A stretch of 64,000 nucleotides of DNA from Actinomycetales bacterium (GTDB lineage Bacteria; Actinomycetota; Actinomycetes; S36-B12; UBA5976). The position numbers and the translations under genes were made by a program. The stretch spans positions 124,001 to 188,000 of the forward strand of contig JAGWXT010000003.1 in NCBI GenBank assembly GCA_018969715.1. The letters are read 5' to 3'. The notes beneath the pieces are model-generated. The model had not been told where the DNA came from. It saw only the letters and a program-made list of their open reading frames with translations, and made no database searches. Shown here piece after piece: positions 13,200 to 39,993 of this stretch (position 1 is its first letter; each line of letters opens with the position of its first letter).

Positions 13200-14084
13200 A
13201 TGCAGCAGTTGAGCGCCTGTGAGGTTCTCGTTGACTGCCGCCTCGACCTCAGCGAGGGACCGGCATGGCACGCCGCCGAAGGAGCCCTGTACTGGGTGAG
13301 CATCCTCGACGGGGTCGTGCATCGCTACCACCTGAGCAGTGGTGAGCATCGCACGTGGGAGGTGGGCCAGATGGTCGGGGCCGTCGTTGTTCGTGAATCG
13401 GGGGGCATGATGCTCGCCATCCGCGATGGCTTTGCCACCCTCGACACCGTCAGTGGCATGACGACCCTGGTCGCTGAAGTTGAGTCAACGGATGCCGGCC
13501 AGCGTATGAACGATGGGAAGTGCGATGCGCGTGGTCGGTTCTGGGCTGGCACCATGAGTGCGAGCACCCCAGTTCCCGGCTCCGGCACCCTCTATCGCCT
13601 CGATGCTGACCGAACGGTCACGCCGATGCTGGGGGGAGTGACCATCTCAAATGGCCTCGGGTGGAGTCCGGACAACAGGACCATGTACTTCATCGACACG
13701 CCCACAGGGCGGGTTGATGCATTTGACTTCGACCTCGCCAGCGGGACCATCGACAACCGGCGCGGGTGTGCCCAGGTCACGCGGGGGGAGGCCTCTCCGG
13801 ATGGCATGGCGGTGGATGCCGAGGGGTGTCTGTGGGTCGCCGTCTGGGGGGTGGGTGAGGTTCGACGCTACAGTCCTGATGGCCGGCATTGCGCGACCCT
13901 GCGGACCCCACTGCCGGCACCCTCGAGTTGCGCCTTCGGTGGCAGCGGCTTGGACACCCTCATGATCACGACTGCCCGACTAGGGCTCACCCCCGAACAA
14001 TGCGCCGAGTTTCCCCACTCCGGAAGCATTCTGGCCGCTGATGTGGGTGTGGTCGGGCTGCCGGTGGCCACCTGTGCGGCATGA
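13200..14084 (+). CDS. SMP-30/gluconolactonase family protein
   Basis: LSEGPAWHAAEGALYWVSILDG, MNDGKCDARGRFWAGTMS, NGLGWSPDNRTMYFIDT motifs. Confidence 0.92.
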   Translation: MQQLSACEVLVDCRLDLSEGPAWHAAEGALYWVSILDGVVHRYHLSSGEHRTWEVGQMVGAVVVRESGGMMLAIRDGFATLDTVSGMTTLVAEVESTDAGQRMNDGKCDARGRFWAGTMSASTPVPGSGTLYRLDADRTVTPMLGGVTISNGLGWSPDNRTMYFIDTPTGRVDAFDFDLASGTIDNRRGCAQVTRGEASPDGMAVDAEGCLWVAVWGVGEVRRYSPDGRHCATLRTPLPAPSSCAFGGSGLDTLMITTARLGLTPEQCAEFPHSGSILAADVGVVGLPVATCAA

Positions 14085-14126
14085 ATCCCCGTCCGCCGCT
14101 GGGTCGCAACAGTAAGCGGCCCGGCG

Positions 14127-14960
14127 TCAGAGACCTGGGACGTAGCCCTGCCCGTATTGCACCGTCACCGGATCTCGGAAGAAGGGCACGGCCGGCATGA
14201 TGGTTGTCTGGCCACCATCGCAGTTGATCGTCTGCCCAATGATGTAGCGGGATTCCGGCGAGGAGAGGAACGCCGCCAGCGCTCCGATATCCGAGCCCTG
14301 ACCGATGAAGCCGCTGGGCAGGACCTGTGCCGCCGCCTGCTCGTCAAAGGTCTCATCCAGTTCGAGGACCTTGCGTTGGTTCTCCACCAGCACCCAGCCC
14401 GACGCGATGCAGTTAACGCGAACTCCCTGCTGGATCAGCTCCAAGGACATCGTTCGAGTCAACCCTACGATCGCAGCCTTCGTTGCCGCGTACACCGAGT
14501 GCTCAGTCATCGCGCCATAGGCATGCACTGAACTGATGTTGACCAATGTGCCTCCCTGACGCGGGATCATGATCTCGGCCGCCCCCTGTGAGACGAAGAA
14601 CATGCCTCGGACATTCACGTTGAACAGCGTGTCGTACTGCTCCGGGGTCGTCTTCAGCAGCGGCCGATTCATCGTGATGCCGGAGTTGTTGATCACACCA
14701 TCGAGGTCACCCAGTGCCTCGGCGGCGCGCTCCGGCAGCTGCCGTGCCTGCGAAACCTCCCCGAGATCCGCCTTGAGCACAGCCGCGGTGCCACCGGCGG
14801 CGCGAATGGTCGCGGCCGCCGACTCCGCTCCGTCCGCACTGTGTGCATAGTGCAGGGCCACTTTCGCGCCACGGTCAGCGAAGTCCAGTGCCAGTCCCCG
14901 TCCGATCCCCGTGCCCGCACCCGTGATGAGAATGTGGCGACCCGCGAGCGTCTGAAACAC
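14127..14960 (-). CDS. SDR family oxidoreductase
   Basis: ILITGAGTGIGRGLAL, NNSG, YAATKAAIVGLTR catalytic YxxxK. Confidence 0.93.
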   Translation of the reverse strand: MFQTLAGRHILITGAGTGIGRGLALDFADRGAKVALHYAHSADGAESAAATIRAAGGTAAVLKADLGEVSQARQLPERAAEALGDLDGVINNSGITMNRPLLKTTPEQYDTLFNVNVRGMFFVSQGAAEIMIPRQGGTLVNISSVHAYGAMTEHSVYAATKAAIVGLTRTMSLELIQQGVRVNCIASGWVLVENQRKVLELDETFDEQAAAQVLPSGFIGQGSDIGALAAFLSSPESRYIIGQTINCDGGQTTIMPAVPFFRDPVTVQYGQGYVPGL

Positions 14961-15178
14961 CCACCAACCTCCTTGTTTATATTTAGCCCTTGTCTATGCG
15001 CTGTCCTCATCGGGCACGCTGATGCGCTGCCCTTGATCGTGCACGCTCGACGTGAGGCCGAGTGGTCTTGCTGGCCGCGCGAACTCGGCCACCCTGCGGC
15101 ACCCTAGGCTACAGTCAACAGTCATCCGAATCGTCGTCGCCGGACGGGCCCCGGCGGCGGGCACGGAGAGGCGGCATC

Positions 15179-16171
15179 GTGGGCGGTCTCACCGCAGTGT
15201 GGGAGGGCGAGTTTCCCCGTCCGGGGGCGGAGGAAGACGCTCGCGAATGGGCCCACCATGGCATTGCGGTTCTGCCCGACGGCCGCGTCGCGGTCGCCGA
15301 TGCGCGCGGCTCGCGGCTGGCCATCTGCCAGCCGGACGGCCGTATTGAACACGTCATGACGCTGCCGATAATCCAGGCGCACGGGATCACCGTCGAGGCC
15401 GGCGATGATGGCACATTCCTCTGGGTCGCCGACAATGGCGATCACCGCTGGCTCCTACCGGACGGGTCGGTGACACCGCGGTCCGACGCCCCTCAGGGGC
15501 GGGTGCTCAAGGTGGGCCTCGATGGTGAGGTGCTGCTTTCCATTGGGGTACCTCGCCTTCCGCAGTACCGCGACGCACCTTTCTCTCCCACGCACGTCGT
15601 GGTTGATGAGGCGAACGCCGGCAGTGGGGATGTGTGGATCTGCGACGGCTATGGGGCCTCGCTCGTGATCAGGGTAACCCCCGAAGGCGAGATCGCTCAG
15701 GTTATCGACGGGGTATCGGGGATGGGCCACTTCAACCAGCCGCACGGGGCGACGATCGACCGGCGTCGCGGCGCGCCGGAGCTCTTGGTCGCTGACCGCG
15801 CGAACAGCCGAATCCAGGTGTTTGACCTCGATGGCCGGTTTCAACGCGGGGTCGGCGTGGGCGATTTGCGCAGCCCCGGGCACTTTGCACCGTACGGTCG
15901 CTGGCTGCTGGTTGCCGAACTCCACCGCCGGATCATGGCGCTGGGTGAGGACGATGCGGTGCACACCGTTCTGGACTGCCGCACAGGTGCTGCCGATGAG
16001 TTCGAGGGCGGCTGGCCCAATGTGCTCGCGGGCGAGGAAACCACATCCCCGGCCTTTCAGGCGGGGATGCTGAACTCGCCCCATTCCATTGCCGTTGCCG
16101 GCGACCGCCTCTATGTCGCCGAATGGGTGATCGGCGGCCGGCTGTGCACGTTCACCCTCCAGGCCTCCTAG
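15179..16171 (+). CDS. NHL-repeat/peptidyl-alpha-hydroxyglycine lyase-like beta-propeller protein
   Basis: HGIAVLPDGRVAVADARGSRL, FNQPHGATIDRRRGAPELLVADRANSRIQVFDLDG; in-frame GTG at 15179. Confidence 0.78.
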   Translation: MGGLTAVWEGEFPRPGAEEDAREWAHHGIAVLPDGRVAVADARGSRLAICQPDGRIEHVMTLPIIQAHGITVEAGDDGTFLWVADNGDHRWLLPDGSVTPRSDAPQGRVLKVGLDGEVLLSIGVPRLPQYRDAPFSPTHVVVDEANAGSGDVWICDGYGASLVIRVTPEGEIAQVIDGVSGMGHFNQPHGATIDRRRGAPELLVADRANSRIQVFDLDGRFQRGVGVGDLRSPGHFAPYGRWLLVAELHRRIMALGEDDAVHTVLDCRTGAADEFEGGWPNVLAGEETTSPAFQAGMLNSPHSIAVAGDRLYVAEWVIGGRLCTFTLQAS

Positions 16172-28390: not shown

Positions 28391-28900
28391 GGGTGGACCC
28401 TAGCCCGCTGACTCGGTCAACCGAGCGATGGCAGCTCGAGCGACACCCCCAAGGTGGCTGCTATTTGTCGGTGCGCTTTTGACGCCTATTGGCGCACACA
28501 CGGCTCGCATCGGGTGAGGTGATCCGTCTCGGACCTTAGTTCGTTGGTCCACATTTGTTCCCGGTCCACTCACCTTCGGCTGCTCGTGTCGTGGTGGTGG
28601 TCTTGTCTCGGCCGGTGGGCGTCCCGAGGACTTGGTCGATGTCCTACTCCTTGCGGGTCGCGGCGAGAGGTGCCGATATCCTCATGGGCGCTGATGAGCG
28701 ACCGCGACAGCCAATTCAAGGGGTCGGGCGCGACGGGCCTCGTGGATCCTGAACCACTATGTTGCTGACCCTGCGCCTCAGTGGGTGGGTGCTCGGTTGA
28801 GGGCATCGATGTGTCGGTCAAGGAGGCTCGCAGTGGACGCCTGTGATTGCCCAAGGAGAAGACATTCAGCGTTGCTGGAGGCCCACGTGGAGGTGGCGCC

Positions 28901-29860
28901 GTGAGCGCGGAACTCCTGACGGCTAGCATCTTCTCGGTCCCCGTCCTGGCCTTTGCACTTGGCCTCGTAGCGGCTTTGATCCGTGCCGACCTTCGGCTAC
29001 CTGAAGCCGTCTATCAGGCAACGTCCATCTACTTGTTGCTCGCGATCGGCATCAAGGGCGGGGTTGCCCTTCGCGAGCAATCTCTGCTCGAGATCGCCGG
29101 CCCGGTAGGCGCCACGATCGCATTGGGCATCATCACCCCGATATTTGCCTTCTTCATGCTGCGTTTGATGACGCGACTGTCGCGCGTGGATCGCGGCGCA
29201 ATGGCGGCTCACTTCGGATCGACATCACTGGTAACTTTCACAGTCGCCTTGGTTTACCTGGACGTGATGGCGGTTCCCTATGAGGGCTACATGGCTACTT
29301 TGCTTGCAGTCATGGAGGTCCCGGGAATCCTGGTGGGACTCCTGCTCGCCGGTCGACAATCGCGCCACGCACGCTGGACTACGTCGACGCGTGAAGTGTT
29401 TACCAGTCGCTCGGTCGTGCTGCTGGTCGGTGGCCTGGCCATTGGTGCGCTCGCTGGCCCTGTCGGCTACGAGAAGGTGGAACCCTTCTTCGGTGCGCCC
29501 TTTGCCGGGGTACTGGCGCTGTTCCTGCTGGAGATGGGCATTCTCGCTGGGAAGCGACTTGGCAGCGTGCGTGACGCCGGTTGGGGGCTGCTTGCATTCG
29601 CGCTGCTGTTCCCGCTGCTGGCAGGGGCCTTGGGAGTCTTCACCGGGGCAGCCGTTGGTCTGAGTCAAGGTGGGGCCATGGTTCTGGGGGTACTGTGTGC
29701 GAGCGCTTCCTATATCGCAGCCCCCGCGGCGGTCCGCCTTGCGTTACCGACCGCAAATCCCGGAATCACGTTGACGACCAGCCTTGGCATCACTTTCCCC
29801 TTCAATTTGGTTCTGGGCATACCGATCTACTGGGCGATTGCGCAGACAGTCGTTTCGTGA
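28901..29860 (+). CDS. sbtA: SbtA-family sodium-dependent bicarbonate transporter
   Basis: LRLPEAVYQATSIYLLLAIGIKGGVAL, ASYIAAPAAVRLALPTANPGITLTTSLGITFPFNLVLGIPIY; alternative ATG at 28847. Confidence 0.88.
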   Translation: MSAELLTASIFSVPVLAFALGLVAALIRADLRLPEAVYQATSIYLLLAIGIKGGVALREQSLLEIAGPVGATIALGIITPIFAFFMLRLMTRLSRVDRGAMAAHFGSTSLVTFTVALVYLDVMAVPYEGYMATLLAVMEVPGILVGLLLAGRQSRHARWTTSTREVFTSRSVVLLVGGLAIGALAGPVGYEKVEPFFGAPFAGVLALFLLEMGILAGKRLGSVRDAGWGLLAFALLFPLLAGALGVFTGAAVGLSQGGAMVLGVLCASASYIAAPAAVRLALPTANPGITLTTSLGITFPFNLVLGIPIYWAIAQTVVS

Positions 29861-29895: not shown

Positions 29896-30216
29896 ATGAC
29901 GAGTGGTCGCACGAAGGTCAAGTGCATAACGATCGTTGCTGAGGTGATTCTGGAACAGCGAATCCTTGATGACTTGCGCGCATGTGGTGCGAGGGGCTGG
30001 ACGGTGACCAACGCACGAGGGGCCGGCCCGCAACACCGTCAAATCAGTGATTTCGAGGGTGGCAATAGCCGGATCGAAGTGCTGGTGGACGCGGGAGTGT
30101 CGGAAAGGATCTGGCAGCTACTCGAGCGCGAGTACTTTCCCGATTTCGCTGTCAGTGCCTGGCTCACGGATGTTGAGGTGGCACGCCCTGATCGCTATGA
30201 AACCAGCCCCAATTAG
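29896..30216 (+). CDS. SbtB-like PII superfamily protein
   Basis: KCITIVAEVILEQRILDDLRACGARGWTVTNARGAG...IEVLVDAGVSERIWQLLEREYFPDFAVSAWLTDVEV directly downstream of sbtA. Confidence 0.82.
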   Translation: MTSGRTKVKCITIVAEVILEQRILDDLRACGARGWTVTNARGAGPQHRQISDFEGGNSRIEVLVDAGVSERIWQLLEREYFPDFAVSAWLTDVEVARPDRYETSPN

Positions 30217-30227
30217 GTCTTCGCACG

Positions 30228-30269
30228 AGCGCGCCCGGAGAGACTCGAACTCCCAACCTTCTGATCCGT
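30228..30269 (-). repeat. Distal att site: tRNA-Arg 3' fragment (perfect copy of 36468-36509)
   Basis: agcgcgcccggagagactcgaactcccaaccttctgatccgt identical at both sites. Confidence 0.95.
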
Positions 30270-30427
30270 CGTGCAGTCCGGTCGAGGTCTTCCCACACCC
30301 ACGTGGACCCTCGAGGAGGACTCCTCCCATGGCCGGCAGGAGGCCGGGAACCGCACCGTCGACCGCTCGGGCACGGTTATCCCCGCAGGGAGAATACCGG
30401 GAATTTCCGCCAGCTTAAGAGGGATTC

Positions 30428-30480
30428 CGCAAGTGTTTTGTGCGGTGCTTCGCAAGTGATTTATACGGTGCTGTGCAAGT
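30428..30480. repeat. 23-bp direct repeats cgcaagtgNtttNtNcggtgctN (2 full + partial third)
   Basis: Direct reading, just inside the distal att. Confidence 0.75.
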
Positions 30481-30534
30481 TAGCGGCCTCGGCGTCTCGC
30501 CGGGTTTCGCGACAAGACCTGAACCCGGTTCGCC

Positions 30535-30963
30535 TCAGCGCAGTGGATTGACCCAGCGCACCCCGTCGAACCGGGCGAAGTCGGCATCCTGGGAGTAGAC
30601 CGTCCCGCCGTTCTCGAAGGCCAGGGCCGCGAGGTGCGAATCGGGGATGAGATCCCCACCCCCGCCCGCGGATGCCATCAGCCGCTCCACGATGAAGAGG
30701 TGCTCAGGGCCGGGCACGAGTGCGTCCACCAGCGGGGAGGCCATCCAGCGGCGAAGGTCGTCGATCGCGTCAGCAACCGGCGCTGGATCGGGCATGATCC
30801 GCGGGTTCGTCATGAGCCGGACATAGGCAATGCACACATGCCAGGCCAGGCCGATCCGCTCCGGGCCCTGCTGGGCTGATGCCCACCACGACCACGAAGC
30901 CTCGTGGTGCTCGCTGTCGGCATTCATCGCGTGCAGGAGCACGTTGACATCTGGGACGATCAC
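30535..30963 (-). CDS. vapC: PIN-domain toxin VapC
   Basis: VIVPDVNVLLHAMNADSEHH, RLMTNPRI, DSHLAALAFENGGTVYSQDADFARF; GTGA overlap with vapB. Confidence 0.92.
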   Translation of the reverse strand: MIVPDVNVLLHAMNADSEHHEASWSWWASAQQGPERIGLAWHVCIAYVRLMTNPRIMPDPAPVADAIDDLRRWMASPLVDALVPGPEHLFIVERLMASAGGGGDLIPDSHLAALAFENGGTVYSQDADFARFDGVRWVNPLR

Positions 30964-31208
30964 CGCCCCTGCCCGAGGATGCCCTGGTCGTCCAGGCTTG
31001 CCGCCAGCGAGAGCGCCTGGGTCAGGTCCACCCGCGGACGGCCAAGCCGCCTCGGCTCGGGCACCTCGACCTGCCTCGGCGCCGCACCCTCGGCGAGCCC
31101 GGTCCGCAGCGCATCGTTGACCACGTCCCGGAACGGCCGGCCAGACTCCCGGGCCCTCCTGCGTAGCAGCACGGCGAGATCGTCGTCCAGGGTCAGGGTC
31201 GTGCGCAC
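30960..31208 (-). CDS. vapB: Ribbon-helix-helix antitoxin VapB
   Basis: MRTTLTLDDDLAVLLRRRARESGRPFRDVVNDALRTGL. Confidence 0.9.
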   Translation of the reverse strand: MRTTLTLDDDLAVLLRRRARESGRPFRDVVNDALRTGLAEGAAPRQVEVPEPRRLGRPRVDLTQALSLAASLDDQGILGQGR

Positions 31209-31228
31209 GCTCGCTTCGTAGTCTGGGG

Positions 31229-31263
31229 GGCATCAAGGCATCTTGTTGTCATGTGTTGATGCC
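31229..31263. promoter_or_regulatory. Candidate vapBC operator, inverted repeat GGCATCAA-N19-TTGATGCC
   Basis: Perfect 8-bp inverted repeat immediately upstream of vapB start. Confidence 0.45.
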
Positions 31264-31488
31264 TCAGCTAGGGGATTCTGCAGCGCTTCCATCCGGGATT
31301 CCGCAAGACCCTCGAGGGCTGCCGCGATCGACCGATCGACTCCGCGTACTGATGGCCGCCATCCTGGCCGCGATACTCGACCGCGAGGTTCCAGTACTGG
31401 TCACGGCGAAGGAGCATGCGACCGCAGGCGCGCCCACTACCGCAATGATCATCGATGTCTCGAGTTGATCGTTCCCTACGATTCGGCC

Positions 31489-31818
31489 ATGTGATTCCTG
31501 ATCGCGGTCATCGACACCGAAACCGGGCTCGCCTCGGCCGACGAGATGGCGGCGATTGACGAGTTCAACGCCGAACTGGCGGACCGGGGATTCTGGGTGA
31601 TGGCAGGCGGCCTGGAGCAACCCTCGCGGACGATGATCATTGACGGACGAACTGACCCAGCGGTGACGACACCTGGGCCGCTTGTTGCGTCATCGGAGTA
31701 CCTCAGCGGCTTCTGGGTGATCGACGTGCCTGATCCAGCACTGGCACTGGACCTTGCGATCCGTGGGTCGAAGGCCTGCAACCGAAAGGTGCAACTGCGG
31801 AAGTTCCTGGGCGAGTAG
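31489..31818 (+). pseudogene. YCII-related domain gene with TGA at codon 2 (ATG-TGA-FLIAVIDTE...)
   Basis: Translation FLIAVIDTETGLASADEMAAIDEFNAELADRGFWVMAGGLEQPS...; in-frame stop right after ATG 31489. Confidence 0.6.
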
Positions 31819-31847
31819 GCCAGGAACTCCAACGGCCCAACGACAGG

Positions 31848-32981
31848 TCAGGAGGTAGCGAGCAGGCCCCCGTTGCCACCGTTGCCACCGTTGCCGCCAC
31901 TGGTTCCCAAGCCACCGGCACCGCCATTGCCGCCCGCTCCGCCCAAGGACGACGCACCGGGAGCACCGGCCGTGGGCGTGTAGGTGAACGCGCCATCCGG
32001 AGCAACAGCAGGAGCACTGGTGGAGACCCCACCGTTTCCTCCGGCGCCACCTGACATTGCCCCGTTACCACCGTTGCCACCGTTGCCGCCGGTGCTGCCC
32101 GTGCCCCCGTTGCCACCGGCCCCGCCCACTGCCCCGGCACCACCGGCTCCCCCGTTGCCTCCAGCACCCTCCATCGCCCCCGGTGCCGGGCACCCTCCGC
32201 CGTTACCGCCTCGACCCCCTGTACCACCGGAGGAAGCGGTCGGCGTAAACGCCGTTGCGCCAGCCGGGCCAACGGATGAGGGGGAGAGCCCGATATCGCC
32301 GCCGTTGCCGCCATTTCCGCCTCGGCCACCGTTGCCGCCGAGCAAACCCCCGCGACCGCCGTTGCCACCCGCGCCGCCGTTGATGGCGAGCGCATCGCTG
32401 GTGGAGAGCAGGCCGATCCCACCATTGCCCCCGTTACCGCCGGTGCCGTAGCGCCCGGCGTCACCTCCGGTGCCGCCATCACAGGAGGCACGGGGCACAC
32501 AGAACCGCGGGGCGTCTCCGCCGTTGCCAGCGCGACCGCCGTACCACCCAGCGTCACCGCCGTCTCCCCCGTTGAATCCGTTGCCGCCATTCCCGAGGAT
32601 CACTCCGGCGTTCCCGCCATCGCAGGCGCGCTCCGTCAGGCACGTCGTCGCGTCGTAGGTGAACCCATTGCCGACCAGCAGCCCCGCATCCGGGTTGTCC
32701 GCGGTGCCGTCGCGAAACAGCACATCGGAGCAGGCCGCAGACTTGGCGCGAATGCGCTTGAGGAGCTGAGGGACTCCGCGGGCCTGAGCAGACCCCGGGG
32801 TGATCACCGAGTGCTTGAGCTCATTCGCCATCGTCATCGCCTGCGACACGCACGCCGATGCTGACGTGGCCGCCGGCATGTCAGCGGGCGCTGCGGCCAT
32901 CGCCCGGCCACCAAACAGCGCCGCCACCACGAGCGGCGACGTACCCAGGGCCGCGGCCAATCCATGTCGTCGAGCAGCCAT
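31848..32981 (-). CDS. Secreted Gly/Asn-rich PGRS-like repeat protein
   Basis: Signal-like N-terminus AAALGTSPLVVAALFGGRAMAAAPA, ~90-aa unique region, then (GGxGGNGG)n; two CxxxxxCDGG modules. Confidence 0.82.
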   Translation of the reverse strand: MAARRHGLAAALGTSPLVVAALFGGRAMAAAPADMPAATSASACVSQAMTMANELKHSVITPGSAQARGVPQLLKRIRAKSAACSDVLFRDGTADNPDAGLLVGNGFTYDATTCLTERACDGGNAGVILGNGGNGFNGGDGGDAGWYGGRAGNGGDAPRFCVPRASCDGGTGGDAGRYGTGGNGGNGGIGLLSTSDALAINGGAGGNGGRGGLLGGNGGRGGNGGNGGDIGLSPSSVGPAGATAFTPTASSGGTGGRGGNGGGCPAPGAMEGAGGNGGAGGAGAVGGAGGNGGTGSTGGNGGNGGNGAMSGGAGGNGGVSTSAPAVAPDGAFTYTPTAGAPGASSLGGAGGNGGAGGLGTSGGNGGNGGNGGLLATS

Positions 32982-33120
32982 GGGAAGTCCCCTCTCTCGG
33001 GAATGGCGTCAGACTCTTCGCAAGGATAGGCCACCGAAAGCCCACCGGCGGTGACATGACGGCACCGCGTCACAACCCCGTGCTTGAAAGTCATGCATCC
33101 AGATCGACGAATGAGGTGAC

Positions 33121-34323
33121 GTGAACGCGACGCCGTTGACGGACGAGGTGAACGCCCAGTACGAGAAGTGGGTCTACCCAGCCCCGATCGAGGACCTCGA
33201 CGAGTGGCTGCGTGACTCATGGCAGTGGTTCGACCCCAGTCACGCGCATCGCCTGTTCTGGCCGGATCAGGACTATCCCGTAGGTATGGACATCCTCGTG
33301 GCCGGGTGCGGAACCAACCAGGCGGCGGTGATCGCGTACACCAATCCTTCGGCACACGTCGTCGCCATCGACGTCAGCGATCACTCGCTCGATCACCATC
33401 GCCAACTCGCACGCAGGTACGACCTGGTGAACTTGGACCTGCATCATCTGCCCATTGAGCAGATCGCCGACCTCGATCGTGATTTCGACCTCGTCATCTC
33501 CACCGGAGTGCTACACCACCTCGCCGATCCCGATGCTGGGTTACGCGCCCTTGCCCAGTGCCTGCGCCCGAACGCGGTCCTCGCGCTGATGCTCTACGCC
33601 AGTTACGGCCGACTGGGCGTGGAGATCATGCAGTCGGTGTTCACCGATCTGGGCCTCGGGCGTAACGAGTCGTCACTGGACCTGATCCGCGATGCCGTGA
33701 CGCAGGTCAACCCGCAACACCCGCTGGTCGGCTACCTGCGGATCGCCGACGATCTCACCGACGACGCCGGGCTGATCGACACCTTCGTCCATGCCCGCGA
33801 GCGCTCGTACACCATCGACGAATGCCGGGAGTTCGTCGAATCCGCTGGATTGGTCTTCCAGGATCTCTTTCACAAGGCGCCCTACTACCCCCCGGCTGGC
33901 AGTGGGAGTGCCTTTCTCACCGGGATCTCGACATTGCCACGGGAACTCCAGTGGTCCGTGATGGAACGACTGAACACCCTGAACGCCTGTCACTACTTCA
34001 TGGCCTGCCGCGCAGATCGACCGACGCCGACCTACGTCATCGACTTCAGGTCGCCCGAAGCGCTTCAGTACGTCCCATCGCTCCGGCACCGCTGCCATCT
34101 CCAAGGAGACCTCCTCGTACGGACCGGTGGCCAGGTACGCCTTGAGCCATGGGCGCTGGATCTTGTCGAACAGATCGACGGCCAGCGCAGTATTGAGGCC
34201 ATCACCGCCCGAATCGCTAGCGACGAGGCGCCGGCGAGCACGCTCGCACCCCTTGATCTCCTTGAAACCCTCTGGCAGCAGGACTACCTCGCCATCGGCA
34301 TCACGCCACCGATTGCGCCCTGA
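33121..34323 (+). CDS. Class I SAM-dependent methyltransferase with C-terminal extension
   Basis: DILVAGCGTNQAAVIAYT, VVAIDVSDHSLDH, LVISTGVLHHLADPDAGLRAL; C-terminal EQIDGQRSIEAITARIA...LWQQDYLAI. Confidence 0.9.
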   Translation: MNATPLTDEVNAQYEKWVYPAPIEDLDEWLRDSWQWFDPSHAHRLFWPDQDYPVGMDILVAGCGTNQAAVIAYTNPSAHVVAIDVSDHSLDHHRQLARRYDLVNLDLHHLPIEQIADLDRDFDLVISTGVLHHLADPDAGLRALAQCLRPNAVLALMLYASYGRLGVEIMQSVFTDLGLGRNESSLDLIRDAVTQVNPQHPLVGYLRIADDLTDDAGLIDTFVHARERSYTIDECREFVESAGLVFQDLFHKAPYYPPAGSGSAFLTGISTLPRELQWSVMERLNTLNACHYFMACRADRPTPTYVIDFRSPEALQYVPSLRHRCHLQGDLLVRTGGQVRLEPWALDLVEQIDGQRSIEAITARIASDEAPASTLAPLDLLETLWQQDYLAIGITPPIAP

Positions 34324-34364
34324 GGCGGGCAGCGGGCCTCATGCCTGCCGTGGGCCGACCTGCT

Positions 34365-34380
34365 GGAGGGCAAGCCCTCC
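34365..34380. terminator. Hairpin GGAGGGCAAGCCCTCC downstream of methyltransferase
   Basis: Perfect inverted repeat. Confidence 0.4.
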
Positions 34381-34400
34381 GAGGCGCCGTCTCTCGCGGG

Positions 34401-34676
34401 TTAGCGGCGGAACCGCAGGTCGTCGGCCTCATACCGCTCGCTGTAGACCACGGTGCCCATCCACAGCCACCACACGGGGAACAGGACGAGGGCGAAGGTC
34501 GCGATCCCGGCGAGGCTCGTGTGCTCCTCGAGCTGATGGGCCATTTGCGCGATGAGCACCACGAAGACGAGGTCAAAGAAGAGCTCCAGCCAGCCGACCT
34601 TGCGCTCACGTCCCAGCTCGGCATCCCGGCGCAGCACGGGTGCTGGCCACCAGGAGTGGCCAATGGTCGAGGACAT
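34401..34676 (-). pseudogene. N-terminal fragment of low temperature requirement protein A (LtrA)
   Basis: GRERKVGWLELFFDLVFVVLIAQMAHQLEEH...LWMGTVVYSERYEADDLRFRR* - only ~91 aa of a normally several-hundred-residue membrane protein. Confidence 0.7.
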
Positions 34677-34680
34677 GGGG

Positions 34681-35691
34681 CTAGAACACGATGACGGGCT
34701 TGCGGCCGCTGGTGTGTCGGCCGGCGGCGGCAGCCATAGTTCGCGGAAGGTCATCGAAGGCCACCGCCGATCCGGTCGTCACCGTGAGATGTCCGCTCCC
34801 CACAAGTGACGCGAGTTCCGCCAGGTGGGCACCGTCCGGCGACGTCACGATCGGCTCGAGCACGGCGCCCGCCCTTGTCACTGCCTTGCGGCTTCGGCCG
34901 GCAACCAGGGGGAGCATCACGCGCAGGAAGCCGCGAGGCTCGATCCCTGCCGCATGCAGGGCGTCGAGGGGAGGCACGCTCTTCAGGGAAACGACGAGCG
35001 CACCGGGCTTGACTGCCTGCAGCGCCGCGCTGAGCACCTTTCCTCCCTGCGTGTCGAGCAGCGCGTCATAGACCCGTCCCTGGCGGGCGTGGTCTACGGT
35101 CGCGTAATCCATCACGGTGGCGGCACCCAGTGACTGGAGGTATTCGGTGTCATGGGTCGAGGCCGTGGTGTCGACCGAAGCCCCTGTGCGCGCGGCGAGT
35201 TGAAGGGCCAGGTGCCCCACCGATCCTGCACCTCCCAGCACGAGGACGCGACTGTCAGGCCCGAGCTGCATCAGGCGGACCGCGAGTGCCGCGGTCGATC
35301 CCACCAGCGGCAGGAAGCCCGCGGCCTGGTCCGGCACGGTGTCAGGCCACGCGGCAGCCCACGCCTGGTCGGCGATCACGAACTCGGCAAAGGCACGTGG
35401 ATTCGGCACGCCTGTGTAGGCGAGGACGCGATCGCCGACGGCGAAGCGGGTCACGTTCGGCCCCACGGCAACGACCTCGCCCGCTACGTCCACGCCGGGC
35501 GTAAGGGGGGCGGGGATCCCCAGCACCTGGGCGATCCCCGCGCCGGTGGCGGTCTCCAGATCTACCGGGTTCAGGCTCGACGAGATCTGCCGCACGAGGA
35601 GTTCACCGGAGGCGGGAGTCGGGTCCGGCATCGACGCGATGGCCAACCTGCGCAGGGTCTTGTCCTTGGGCTGGGTGCGTAGCGCTCGCAT
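34681..35691 (-). CDS. Zinc-type alcohol dehydrogenase/quinone reductase-like NADP-dependent oxidoreductase
   Basis: MRALRTQPKDK..., LNPVDLETATG, PGVDVAGEVVAVGPNVTRFAVGDRV, VLVLGGAGSVGHLALQLA; ATG at 35691. Confidence 0.9.
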   Translation of the reverse strand: MRALRTQPKDKTLRRLAIASMPDPTPASGELLVRQISSSLNPVDLETATGAGIAQVLGIPAPLTPGVDVAGEVVAVGPNVTRFAVGDRVLAYTGVPNPRAFAEFVIADQAWAAAWPDTVPDQAAGFLPLVGSTAALAVRLMQLGPDSRVLVLGGAGSVGHLALQLAARTGASVDTTASTHDTEYLQSLGAATVMDYATVDHARQGRVYDALLDTQGGKVLSAALQAVKPGALVVSLKSVPPLDALHAAGIEPRGFLRVMLPLVAGRSRKAVTRAGAVLEPIVTSPDGAHLAELASLVGSGHLTVTTGSAVAFDDLPRTMAAAAGRHTSGRKPVIVF

Positions 35692-35718
35692 GGGTCCTCC
35701 AGGGGCACGATTAGTAAG

Positions 35719-35760
35719 ACGATATGTGTCGTAAACAATAGCAATACGATATGACCTGTC
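35719..35760. promoter_or_regulatory. Divergent promoter region with repeated ACGATATG boxes (35719, 35746), candidate TetR operator
   Basis: acgatatgtgtcgt partial palindrome and second acgatatg box between divergent genes. Confidence 0.45.
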
Positions 35761-35782
35761 AACTTGCAGAGAGGTCCTGACC

Positions 35783-36400
35783 GTGACGACCAGACTTGGG
35801 CGGCCCCCGGGGGCCCACGACGACACGATCGCCAGACTCCTGCCGGCGGCCCTCCGCCTGTTCCTGGAGGAGGGAGGGGGCGCACTCACGCCGACGAGAC
35901 TCGCTGCCGAGACGGGCATGTCACGCGCGACTCTGTACCGCAACTGGCCTGAGCGGGAAGACCTTGTGGCCCTACTTCTGGAGCGGGCGACGCTTCCCCC
36001 TGGTGACGTTTCGCGGTCCGACGACTGGCGGCGCGACCTCGAGGCACACATGCTCAGCCTGGCGGAACGGCTGCGCGCCAAACCTGCTCGCGCCTTCTTC
36101 GCCGCCTGCCTGTCGTACGGGCAGCGGTCAGAACGTGCTCGTCAGGCTGCCCAGGACTTCATCAATGGAATCCTCATAGGGGTGTCCGAGTGCATTGAGG
36201 CCGGCATACGGGCCGGTGAGCTCCATGGTGAAGCCGCCCATCTGACTTCCCTCGTCGCTGGCCCGCTGATGCTTCGCCACGTTCTCCTCGGCCAATCTGT
36301 GAATGACCAAGAGGTCCGCACCGACGTGAGGAGTTTCCTCCACGCCGCCGCGCCCACGCCGTCCCGGCACGACCTTCGCTCCAAGGTCGACAATCGCTAG
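35783..36400 (+). CDS. TetR-family transcriptional regulator
   Basis: LAAETGMSRATLYRNWPEREDLVALLLE helix-turn-helix. Confidence 0.92.
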   Translation: MTTRLGRPPGAHDDTIARLLPAALRLFLEEGGGALTPTRLAAETGMSRATLYRNWPEREDLVALLLERATLPPGDVSRSDDWRRDLEAHMLSLAERLRAKPARAFFAACLSYGQRSERARQAAQDFINGILIGVSECIEAGIRAGELHGEAAHLTSLVAGPLMLRHVLLGQSVNDQEVRTDVRSFLHAAAPTPSRHDLRSKVDNR

Positions 36401-36469
36401 GTCTTGTCCGGTTGATACCGCTACGCGCATAGGCGGATGCCGGCCACGTAGCGAAACGGACCCAACTAG

Positions 36470-36542
36470 CGCGCCCGGAGAGACTCGAACTCCCAACCTT
36501 CTGATCCGTAGTCAGATGCTCTATCCGTTGAGCTACGGGCGC
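36470..36542 (-). tRNA. tRNA-Arg(ACG)
   Basis: GCGCCCG...CTACGGA...GGTTCGAGTC-type TpsiC...CGGGCGC; complete cloverleaf, anticodon ACG. Confidence 0.95.
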
Positions 36543-36925
36543 ACGGCCGAAGACGAAAACTGAGTGTAGCCGACGATCAGATTCGGACTTCGATTCCTTG
36601 GGTCGCACAGTGGCATGACCGATCACTCCCTCGGCCGCCGCCACGTTCTCGCTGCCACCTGCGGCATTCTCGCCGCTGGCTTTGGTACGCGCCGCCCGCC
36701 GATGAAGCCTGGGGAGCTGTGCCGGGCGCGGTTCTCCTTCCGGGTCTTCCTCACCTTGGCCTGCACCATCGGGCGGGGTGGGTGCAGGCTGCGGCCGACG
36801 GAAGCGTCACCACGTTCATGAGCAAAGTCGGCAGCAACCCCGGTGAAGGTTCCGACCTTGCTGTGTGAGCCACTCTCTGCCCGGCGCAGTTCACGCGGAA
36901 TGTCCCGCACCCTTAGATTGCCCGC

Positions 36926-37645
36926 ATGGCCACGGCATCAGACGTCAAACGTGCGCTTCGGGTTCGTGCCGATGGCGTCACCGCAACGAACCTTGCACGG
37001 TTCTTCCAAACGGAACCGGGCGGATACGGAGAGGGTGATCGGTTTCTCGGGCTGCGCGTTCCCCAGGTGAGAAGTGTTGCGGAGCGCTACTCCGATCTCT
37101 CGAACACGCAGATTCGAGCACTCATGCGTTCAAGGTTCCATGAAGACAGGTTCTGCGCCCTTGCCATCCTCACCAGTAGGTTTCAGAAGCCTGACGCAGA
37201 TCGCGCCGGGTTGTGGCGGCTCTATCTCGAATTGCTTGATGAAGGCGGCATCAACAACTGGGATCTCGTGGACGCCACTGCTCCCCATCTCGGACAGTTC
37301 CTGGTGTCCGAGAAGAATCCGATGACCACCATTCGTTCACTGATCAAGAGTAGGGATCTGTGGCACCAGCGCGTAGGGGTGATGGTGACCTGGGCATTCA
37401 TCAAGAAGGGGGATCTTGAGCCCACGTTCACCGTATGCGAGTACCTGATTGATCACCCGCATGCCCTTATTCATAAAGCATCCGGCTGGATGCTCCGCGA
37501 AGCGGGCAAGCGCAACATCGGTGCACTGCGGGAGTTCCTTGAACTGCATCACCGAGAGATGCCGCGCAGCATGCTGCGCTACGCGATCGAAAAGATGGCC
37601 CCGGCGGAACGTGCGCGCTGGCGAGTCAATGACGATCACCCGTGA
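36926..37645 (+). CDS. DNA alkylation repair protein (AlkD-like HEAT repeat)
   Basis: GLRVPQVRSVAERYSDL, EDRFCALAIL, NNWDLVDATAPHLGQFL, HKASGWMLREAGKR. Confidence 0.93.
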   Translation: MATASDVKRALRVRADGVTATNLARFFQTEPGGYGEGDRFLGLRVPQVRSVAERYSDLSNTQIRALMRSRFHEDRFCALAILTSRFQKPDADRAGLWRLYLELLDEGGINNWDLVDATAPHLGQFLVSEKNPMTTIRSLIKSRDLWHQRVGVMVTWAFIKKGDLEPTFTVCEYLIDHPHALIHKASGWMLREAGKRNIGALREFLELHHREMPRSMLRYAIEKMAPAERARWRVNDDHP

Positions 37646-37790
37646 TGGAAAGCCCGTGGCAGTCCTGTCACCTCCACCTACCCCCCGACTCAATGCGCAC
37701 GCACTCATTGAGGCCTGGAAGAAGGTTCCCGTTATCGACGCGCAGAGGTTGCGCGCCGACGTTGCGGAGATTCTGGACTTCGATCTGTGA
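37614..37790 (+). pseudogene. Phd/YefM-type antitoxin C-terminal fragment
   Basis: RAGESMTITRDGKPVAVLSPPPTPR...VPVIDAQRLRADVAEILD, lacking the N-terminal DNA-binding part. Confidence 0.65.
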
Positions 37791-37933
37791 GCGCAAAGGT
37801 CGGTCTCCTGGACACGAGCGTGGTCGTGGCGTTGGCTTCACTTTCCCCTTCGGACATTCCCACGCACCCTTTGATACGCGCCATCACCCTCGCCGAGTTA
37901 TCCGTGGGTCCACTTGTTGCCGCCGCGAGTTGA
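37787..37933 (+). pseudogene. Truncated PIN-domain toxin (VapC) fragment
   Basis: VSAKVGLLDTSVVVALASLSPSDIPTHPLIRAITLAELSVGPLVAAAS*; stops after 48 aa; GTGA overlap with antitoxin fragment. Confidence 0.65.
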
Positions 37934-38063
37934 ATGTGTCGGACTTGACGATACTCCCGGAAACGAGTTTGTCCAGATACCGGATCCTCTGCACAAAAGG
38001 GACGTCAATCCCTTGAACGTGGACGCCACACGGGCGGAACACCCCACCCGAGTTGAGCGATCG

Positions 38064-38573
38064 TCAGCCGCCCTCGTAGGCGCGTTGGAGCTCGGCTAGT
38101 TTGATCTTTGTCATCGCCAGCATTGCTTGCGTTGCTCGCTGCGCGCCTTCCGGGTTCGGGCCACCGAGATACGTCATCAGCTCGGGTGAGATCACTTGCC
38201 ACGAGAGACCGAACTTGTCCTTGAGCCATCCACACTGGCTCTCCTCGCCACCGTCACGGGTGAGCGCATCCCAATAGAAGTCAATTTCTTCCTGATCACG
38301 GCAGGGAATCTGAAATGACACCGCTTCCGAGTGCGGGAACCGTGGACCACCGTTTAGGCCCACGAACTTCTGCCCAAAGATGGTGAATTCCACAAAGACT
38401 TCCTCACCCTGACTATTGCCGGGCGTGTCTGTGGGGGCATTCCACTCGGTATCAATCGAAGCGTCAGGGAAGATGCTGGTGTAGTACTCCGCTGCCTCGC
38501 GAGCGTTTCCGTTGAACCACAAGCAGGTGGTGAGTTCCAAGGGGTCTCCCGCATGTTGATGAGGTGCAGCCAT
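38064..38573 (-). CDS. PhnB-like VOC family protein
   Basis: LTTCLWFNGNAREAAEYYTSIFPDASI, FTIFGQKFVGLNGGPRF, WLKDKFGLSWQVIP-like. Confidence 0.92.
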   Translation of the reverse strand: MAAPHQHAGDPLELTTCLWFNGNAREAAEYYTSIFPDASIDTEWNAPTDTPGNSQGEEVFVEFTIFGQKFVGLNGGPRFPHSEAVSFQIPCRDQEEIDFYWDALTRDGGEESQCGWLKDKFGLSWQVISPELMTYLGGPNPEGAQRATQAMLAMTKIKLAELQRAYEGG

Positions 38574-38642
38574 TGCTGTGCAGCGATTGGAGCGGGGGGT
38601 TTTGTTCGCGGAGGGATTCGAAGTCCAAACCTAGTTCCCCAG

Positions 38643-39629
38643 CTACCGGACGGATCCCACGGCGCCCGGTCCCGCGGGAGCCTCGCTGGGAATGGCCGCC
38701 GCCGGGGTCCCGGCACGGGAACCTGCTATTTCCGCGGTCACGATGCCGGCAACGACGATGAGCGCACCGAGTCCCTGAACGACACTGAGTGACTCGCCCA
38801 GTAGCAACAGGCCGAAACCGACGGCCCAGAGCGGTTCGGTGGTGCCGACGATCCCTGCCCGTTGGGAGCCGATTCGGCGCAGCGACCCAACGACGAGCAG
38901 GAATGGCACGACGGTGCCGAGCACGACACCCCACGCCATGATCGACCAGACCGGCACCGGCCACGCCTCATTGATGGGAGTTGCATCGCGGGTGAGCACC
39001 GCCCACGGGAACCCGCTCCAGGGTGCGACCACCGCCCAGCCCAGACTTGCGAAGACGAATCCCCACATGGTGAGCGACAGCGCATCCCGCTGCTGCGCCC
39101 CCCGCTCCCCCATCAACCAGTAAAGGGCGAGCGCGATCGCACAAGCAAGGCCGGCCGCGACGCCGACCCCGTCCAACCGGATTCCCTGCCACGCCTCGGC
39201 CACGAGCGCCAGGCCGCCGACGGCCAAGCCCAGTGCCAGCCATACGAGGGGTCCCACCGGCCGGCGTCTGATGAACCGCAGCCACACCACGACACCGATG
39301 GGCGCGAGGAAGACCAGCAGGGTGCCGATCCCCACCGGCAGGCGGGAGACAGTCAGAAAGTAGAGGTACTGCACCAGCATGAACGCAACGGCGCCGTAGG
39401 CGAGCAGGAAGCCGAGGTCGCGCCAGTGGATGCGGAAGCCGCGCGGCGCCCAGGCAGCGACGATGGCCAGCATCAGCACTGCCGCTCCGATATTGCGCAA
39501 CTGCGTCCAGTGCAGTGGGTCCATACCAACGGCGAATGCGGCCTTCGACATCGTCCCGAACAGTGCAAACAGGGCCGCCGCCACGAGGTACATGGCGATC
39601 CCCGCCGTCCGGTTGCGGTCGGTGCCCAT
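38643..39629 (-). CDS. EamA/DMT family transporter
   Basis: 10 TM helices; ALFALFGTMSKAAF, LPVGIGTLLVFLAPIGVVVWL, VGTTEPLWAVGFGLLLLGE. Confidence 0.88.
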   Translation of the reverse strand: MGTDRNRTAGIAMYLVAAALFALFGTMSKAAFAVGMDPLHWTQLRNIGAAVLMLAIVAAWAPRGFRIHWRDLGFLLAYGAVAFMLVQYLYFLTVSRLPVGIGTLLVFLAPIGVVVWLRFIRRRPVGPLVWLALGLAVGGLALVAEAWQGIRLDGVGVAAGLACAIALALYWLMGERGAQQRDALSLTMWGFVFASLGWAVVAPWSGFPWAVLTRDATPINEAWPVPVWSIMAWGVVLGTVVPFLLVVGSLRRIGSQRAGIVGTTEPLWAVGFGLLLLGESLSVVQGLGALIVVAGIVTAEIAGSRAGTPAAAIPSEAPAGPGAVGSVR

Positions 39630-39674
39630 CAGCCGCTCACCGACAGCGCACCGCGACGACTGCTCCCCGTGGGG

Positions 39675-39766
39675 CGGAGGCGGAGGGATTTGAACCCTCG
39701 AGGGGGCTATAAACCCCCAACCCGCTTAGCAGGCGGGCGCCATAGACCGGACTAGGCGACGCCTCC
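39675..39766 (-). tRNA. tRNA-Ser(GCT)
   Basis: GGAGGCG...CTGCTAA... long variable arm ...GGTTCAAATCC...CGCCTCCG. Confidence 0.95.
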
Positions 39767-39903
39767 CCAGAGGGACGCCGGACGGCGCCACTCCGACCAT
39801 AGGTTACCGGCGCGTCCGGCCGCACCTCACCGGTCACCGCGGGCCTCCTAACGTGGTGGGCTGACTGACCCGCGACGGGGTGGGACGGCTGAGTCCACCC
39901 CGG

Positions 39904-39993
39904 CGGAGGGCGTGGGATTCGAACCCACGGTGACGGGGGCACCGTCACAACGGTTTTCAAGACCGCCGCACTCGTCCGCTATGCGAGCCCTCC
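39904..39993 (-). tRNA. tRNA-Ser(TGA)
   Basis: GGAGGGC...CTTGAAA... long variable arm ...GGTTCGAATCC...GCCCTCCG. Confidence 0.95.

Follow-up and report, generated by a model that had tools for sequence, protein, structure and literature searches.

In the 64,000-nucleotide stretch of an Actinomycetales genome analysed here (assembly GCA_018969715.1, contig JAGWXT010000003.1; referred to as the window), a gene for tRNA-Arg(ACG) and a second, partial copy of it enclose a block of accessory genes of about 6.2 kb, which lies directly behind the gene pair for an SbtA-type bicarbonate transporter and its PII-like partner SbtB (Table 1). An earlier note on this DNA had placed an intact tRNA-Arg on the minus strand at 36470-36542 and an identical copy of its 3' part, in the same orientation, at 30228-30269. 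Both observations hold, as the tRNA gene is recovered by ARAGORN and by Rfam and the two copies agree in all 42 bases. Read on the tRNA strand, the 42-bp core opens with the first base of the anticodon and closes 2 bp beyond the discriminator base, and a repeat finder returned it within slightly longer copies (30225-30272 and 36465-36512, 96% identity over 48 bp) with a start-to-start distance of 6240 bp. A perfect match of this length is far beyond chance. The earlier note had also considered that the 42-bp fragment might be a generic repeat; it is not a dispersed one, since a BLAST search with positions 30180-30320 against the whole 2.15-Mb genome retrieved these two copies only, together with two tRNA-Arg(TCT) genes at 85% identity. 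When the flanks of the window are joined in silico through one 42-bp copy, a single intact tRNA-Arg(ACG) results, and by inspection no gene is disrupted, because SbtB ends at 30216. The repeat very probably marks a past site-specific integration at tRNA-Arg(ACG).

A relative offers a view of the site before such an event. In G014, which belongs to a sister genus, 114 bp separate an SbtA homologue (14068-15030) from a complete, convergent tRNA-Arg(ACG) gene behind it (15145-15218), an arrangement that, on sequence comparison, is an empty site. The order SbtB, tRNA-Arg and AlkD that the earlier note predicted for relatives was not found as such; what G014 has is SbtA followed by tRNA-Arg, with AlkD located elsewhere.

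The same tRNA gene has received insertions in other genomes of the order. A degenerate pattern 40 bases long, built on the 3' half and leaving tRNAs outside it uncounted, matched in 49 of 166 genomes and revealed eight clear orphan halves in seven of them (this genome, G000; G008, with two; G085, G105, G106, G158 and G032). In every one of them the match to the tRNA breaks off at the anticodon or no more than about 5 bases 5' of it; this 5' limit alone is informative, because the 3' extent is imposed by the pattern. The richest case is G008, a member of the same genus as G014, in which the C-terminal 67 residues of a tyrosine integrase are encoded on the opposite strand (L068 7984-8184), from 87 bp past tRNA-Arg(ACG). 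This remnant matched the PHROG 1 integrase family (E = 8e-17) and a custom integrase hidden Markov model (HMM; E = 8e-24); it is one of the 17 seeds of the latter, so that PHROGs provides the independent test. A separate contig of G008 holds two orphan 3' halves (L067 65-109 and 1413-1456), and the order of the two contigs, which are unjoined in the assembly, is inferred. The distal half is close in sequence to G014's tRNA and has behind it the stem-loop and T-run terminator that also stands behind the intact tRNA there; this identifies it as the displaced original end of the host gene. The three 3' halves of G008 (those two and the one in the stretch L068 7823-8232, with the integrase remnant) all differ in sequence. 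In other relatives the assembly itself is interrupted at tRNA-Arg(ACG), with a contig ending 2 bp beyond it in G040 (G040:C20, L070) and a run of N in G001 (L069 8108-8123), which suggests the breaks expected if the 3' half were repeated. From these comparisons, tRNA-Arg(ACG) is a recurrent integration hotspot across this order of small-genome actinobacteria.

Insertions at the same attachment (att) site also occur in more distant actinobacteria. The exact 41-mer of the tRNA half is present in 66 stretches of a genome contig collection, many of them from Nocardia, Mycobacterium, Pseudonocardiales and Microbacteriaceae. Most are ordinary tRNAs, and since the identity reflects conservation of the tRNA it does not date the insertion. 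Several of the stretches, however, are orphan halves, and in several an integrase frame lies near the tRNA or the half. In the same-att insertions of Nocardia and Pseudonocardiales, 69-104 bp separate the end of the integrase frame from the 41-bp match; in the Pseudonocardiales metagenome-assembled genome nzgw100 (JAHEXI010000018.1), the tRNA (at about 9065) and the displaced half (at about 35745) are about 26.7 kb apart on a single contig and an integrase frame lies behind the tRNA. Together with the empty site of G014 and the remnant and displaced halves of G008, these integrase-bearing insertions bear out the proposal of the earlier note that the window preserves the geometry of tyrosine-recombinase integration at a tRNA 3' end.

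Table 1. The island, its att copies and its left flank, in window coordinates.
Feature	Position	Strand	Basis and remarks
SbtA-type bicarbonate transporter (left chromosomal flank)	28847-29860	plus	Pfam Sbt_1, E = 2e-110; homologue 114 bp from tRNA-Arg(ACG) in G014
SbtB (PII-like), final gene ahead of the island	29896-30216	plus	Pfam P-II, E = 2.5e-13
Displaced 3' half of tRNA-Arg(ACG), att site	30228-30269	minus	42/42 identity to 36468-36509
DUF4143-like ATPase fragment with Walker motif; the frame runs into the att copy and is truncated at that point	30270-30414	minus	Direct translation
Tandem pair of 23-bp repeats, close within the island's left edge	30428-30473	plus	Repeat sequence CGCAAGTGTTTTGTGCGGTGCTT
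VapC-type PIN ribonuclease toxin	30535-30963	minus	NCBIfam TIGR00028, 123.8 bits (cut-off 73.6)
VapB-like ribbon-helix-helix antitoxin	30960-31208	minus	RHH_1 E = 0.004 and VapB_antitoxin E = 0.03, both below cut-offs; overlaps vapC
YCII-like gene	31489-31818	plus	YCII E = 3e-4, just under cut-off
Glycine-rich (PGRS-like) protein, 377 amino acids	31848-32981	minus	GGNGG repeats
S-adenosylmethionine (SAM) methyltransferase, 400 amino acids, full length	33121-34323	plus	Methyltransf_12, E = 1e-16
LtrA N-terminal fragment	34401-34683	minus	Pfam LtrA positions 1-65 of 356
Medium-chain (quinone-type) oxidoreductase	34681-35691	minus	ADH_N, ADH_zinc_N_2
TetR-family regulator, divergent from the oxidoreductase	35783-36400	plus	TetR_N, TetR_C_11; ends about 69 bp from the tRNA
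att site within the putatively regenerated tRNA-Arg(ACG)	36468-36509	minus	Base-by-base comparison
Intact tRNA-Arg(ACG)	36469-36542 (ARAGORN); 36470-36542 (Rfam)	minus	67.7 bits (Rfam gathering score 29)

The gene list of the earlier note needs some correction. The methyltransferase is of full length and LtrA is present as an N-terminal fragment only; the ATPase fragment that abuts the att copy is to be added. The ATG of the YCII-like gene at 31489 is directly followed by a TGA codon (31492-31494), and the gene is therefore either broken or started internally, at 31546. The ATPase fragment matches DUF4143 proteins weakly (about 48% identity over 29 amino acids, E values of 0.3-8), and such protein matches speak, if weakly, for a DUF4143-type ATPase. 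A 28-bp match at 30282-30309 to dnaX of G022 and G037 had made a dnaX-derived or CRISPR-like piece a candidate, which was rejected as the conserved part is the Walker A motif only. No family was assigned to the PGRS-like protein in the library scans, nor did it find a match in the plasmid search. Phage structural, packaging or regulatory genes are lacking, the comparison of six island proteins with PHROGs having given generic methyltransferase and dehydrogenase matches only, and no known anti-phage system was recognized, PADLOC returning a methyltransferase-domain match to mads_2 alone.

Regarding the flanks, the SbtA-SbtB pair is kept in G010, G016, G020 and G040, and scans of two contig collections (bacterial genome and viral contigs) with the SbtA and SbtB proteins gave no relative. 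On the other side, the cluster of tRNA-Ser(TGA), tRNA-Ser(GCT) and tRNA-Arg(ACG) is kept in relatives and here spans 36469-39993, its gap holding AlkD and further genes. The part between tRNA-Arg(ACG) and tRNA-Ser(GCT), about 3.1 kb at 36543-39672 including AlkD, corresponds to a gap of 50-250 bp in several relatives; it forms a further accessory stretch, which flanks the tRNA opposite the island.

Everything between the two copies had been described as accessory in the earlier note, which is borne out for part of the cargo only. Of 58 other genomes searched, G051, which belongs to another family, alone contains a homologue of the methyltransferase (55% identity), and none gives an oxidoreductase match at E <= 1e-40. 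Neither gene is represented in the remaining genomes of the family; a quinone oxidoreductase of G008 was dismissed as its counterpart, with 27% identity only. The G051 methyltransferase homologue (G051:C60, L250 1492-2792) is located 30 bp from tRNA-Arg(CCT), an adjacency that is only suggestive, because a displaced half of tRNA-Arg(CCT) was sought at this locus and not found. Searches of plasmids with the methyltransferase gave no full-length relative. The description fits the YCII-like gene less well, with homologues resident in several genomes of the family, and this gene does not clearly appear to be island-specific. Adjacency of SbtA and YCII was considered as an ancestral order and given up, being found at other Sbt loci in G008 only.

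The integrase was sought with the PF00589 profile over the genome and with the custom HMM on individual loci. In agreement with the earlier note, which had seen neither an integrase nor an excisionase, the window has no PF00589 match, the custom HMM found none in it either, and the remaining open frames of the island, once scanned, yielded no integrase; no replication, transfer (FtsK-like), excisionase or packaging genes were recognized among the island proteins in the family scans. At about 69 bp from the tRNA, where the same-att insertions elsewhere have their integrase, lies the TetR gene. The search of the whole genome for an integrase matching the site, which the earlier note had recommended, produced three PF00589 matches, none within the window and none of which fits. 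The first is a XerC-type gene beside dprA. The second is a broken tyrosine recombinase in two overlapping frames (G000:C22:219879-220848; L006 1002-1971), located on the contig of the island but 60 kb beyond it. The third is a 706-residue tyrosine recombinase with a helix-turn-helix-like C-terminal part, which starts 71 bp behind tRNA-Met(CAT) (G000:C36, L007 761-3027, L088 5271-7534); no fragment of that tRNA was found within the 12.5 kb examined around it. By tyrosine-type searches, then, the genome has no integrase matching the tRNA-Arg site, serine integrases not having been searched genome-wide.

We consider it reasonably likely that the 6.2 kb seen today represent, in essence, a single island from which the integrase has been lost. 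In such a history, a tyrosine integrase would have catalysed entry of the island into the 3' half of tRNA-Arg(ACG), with strand exchange taking place within the 42-bp identity and, by analogy, at the anticodon-loop sub-site. An equivalent tRNA 3' half brought in by the element would have regenerated the tRNA at 36469-36542, and the half that we take to be the host's own would have been displaced to 30228-30269, beside SbtB. The integrase, which we infer to have been present once, and any replication and transfer genes would have been deleted later, leaving as cargo VapBC, the damaged YCII gene, the PGRS-like protein, the methyltransferase, the truncated LtrA and the oxidoreductase/TetR pair. 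G008, with its integrase remnant, gives a picture of an intermediate stage. The element is probably a decayed and now immobile remnant.

Several observations weigh against this history. The YCII homologues (45-53% identity in G008, G004 and G011, and present also in G001) are ordinary residents of several genomes of the family, and that of G008 has SbtA on one side and the distal displaced half on the other, so that the content of the island might be partly older resident DNA. Composition neither marks the block as foreign nor delimits its edges, with 66.6% GC against 68.3% and a tetranucleotide rank of 69 among 145 windows. The empty site comes from another genus, in which SbtB is missing at that place, the comparison including no genome of the same genus. 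Finally, the ATPase fragment stops exactly at the att copy, of which a simple conservative integration gives no account; this end may record an earlier recombination within the element.

Part of these observations would be accommodated if two or more events had built the locus, the 42-bp copies bracketing a mosaic of an eroded older tRNA-Arg insertion and of resident or separately acquired genes. The YCII homologues of the four genomes just named, the truncated LtrA and ATPase genes and the tandem insertions at the tRNA-Arg site of G008 are all compatible with such a mosaic, which is nevertheless an unlikely origin for the block: SbtA stands directly beside the tRNA in G014, so that resident genes between them are not required, and no other genome of the family has the methyltransferase or the oxidoreductase.

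Mobilization in trans was the other fate, next to decay, that the earlier note had left for the island, and it is decay that is favoured; no positive evidence for mobilization emerged. An integrase-free element with two perfect att sites could be moved by the integrase of another tRNA-Arg element, in the manner of a satellite or a cis-mobilizable island, and the 42/42 identity of the att copies, the use of the same att by integrase-bearing elements in other actinobacteria and the lack of an integrase inside the island would all suit this mode of life. We regard it as improbable, however, because no matching integrase was found in the genome (the best candidate is of XerC type, one lies at tRNA-Met and one is broken), no packaging or excisionase gene was recognized, and identity is no proof of activity where the tRNA half is conserved for itself, as the 41-mer of Nocardia, Mycobacterium and Pseudonocardiales indicates. 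Even less probable is a segmental duplication or illegitimate copying of the tRNA half with no integrase involved; the absence of an integrase and the joining of the ATPase fragment straight to the tRNA half could be read in this way, but the displaced halves found elsewhere share their 5' limit, and several have a neighbouring integrase or remnant. An assembly artefact joining two tRNA-Arg contexts is scarcely credible, for although this is a draft genome of 36 contigs and contigs of some relatives end at tRNA-Arg(ACG) (G040:C20), a single short read is longer than the 42-48 bp of the copy, which sits 154 kb into a contig of 228 kb.

An integrated island that lost its integrase finds its closest counterparts among the anticodon-centred islands of Islander, which lists 2083 such ('A') islands, 3760 islands with a 3' fragment, and tandem arrays, and in which the anticodon-loop sub-site is the commoner of two sub-site classes (PMC4383910). 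Shared with them are the intact target tRNA gene, the displaced cognate 3' fragment that bounds the island in direct orientation, the identity from the anticodon to the 3' end and an uninterrupted site in a relative (G014, of another genus and without SbtB). The tyrosine integrase gene that Islander requires within the island (PMC4383910) is, in contrast, missing here, and we therefore file the element as an integrase-less remnant and not as an intact island. Actinobacterial integrative elements (AICEs) likewise insert at the 3' end of actinobacterial tRNA-Arg genes and form tandem arrays and recognized remnants; Sav3708 and Sav3728 lie in tandem at a tRNA-Arg of Streptomyces avermitilis, and Fean6303 occupies a tRNA-Arg of Frankia (PMC3218068). 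These elements are defined by integrase, replication and FtsK-like transfer genes, whereas the island has no int, rep or tra gene and measures only 6.2 kb. Being small, rich in cargo and inserted at a tRNA of a small genome, it also recalls tycheposons, a likeness of value as a lead only. Tycheposons carry a tyrosine recombinase, unlike the island. They are discussed, with the flexible islands of streamlined aquatic bacteria, in PMC10872708.

The window's own island is otherwise ordinary and of a kind that is already well known. What this order of small-genome actinobacteria adds is found at the same tRNA gene in G008, which can be viewed as a worked example of successive insertions, each replacing part of an essential tRNA gene.

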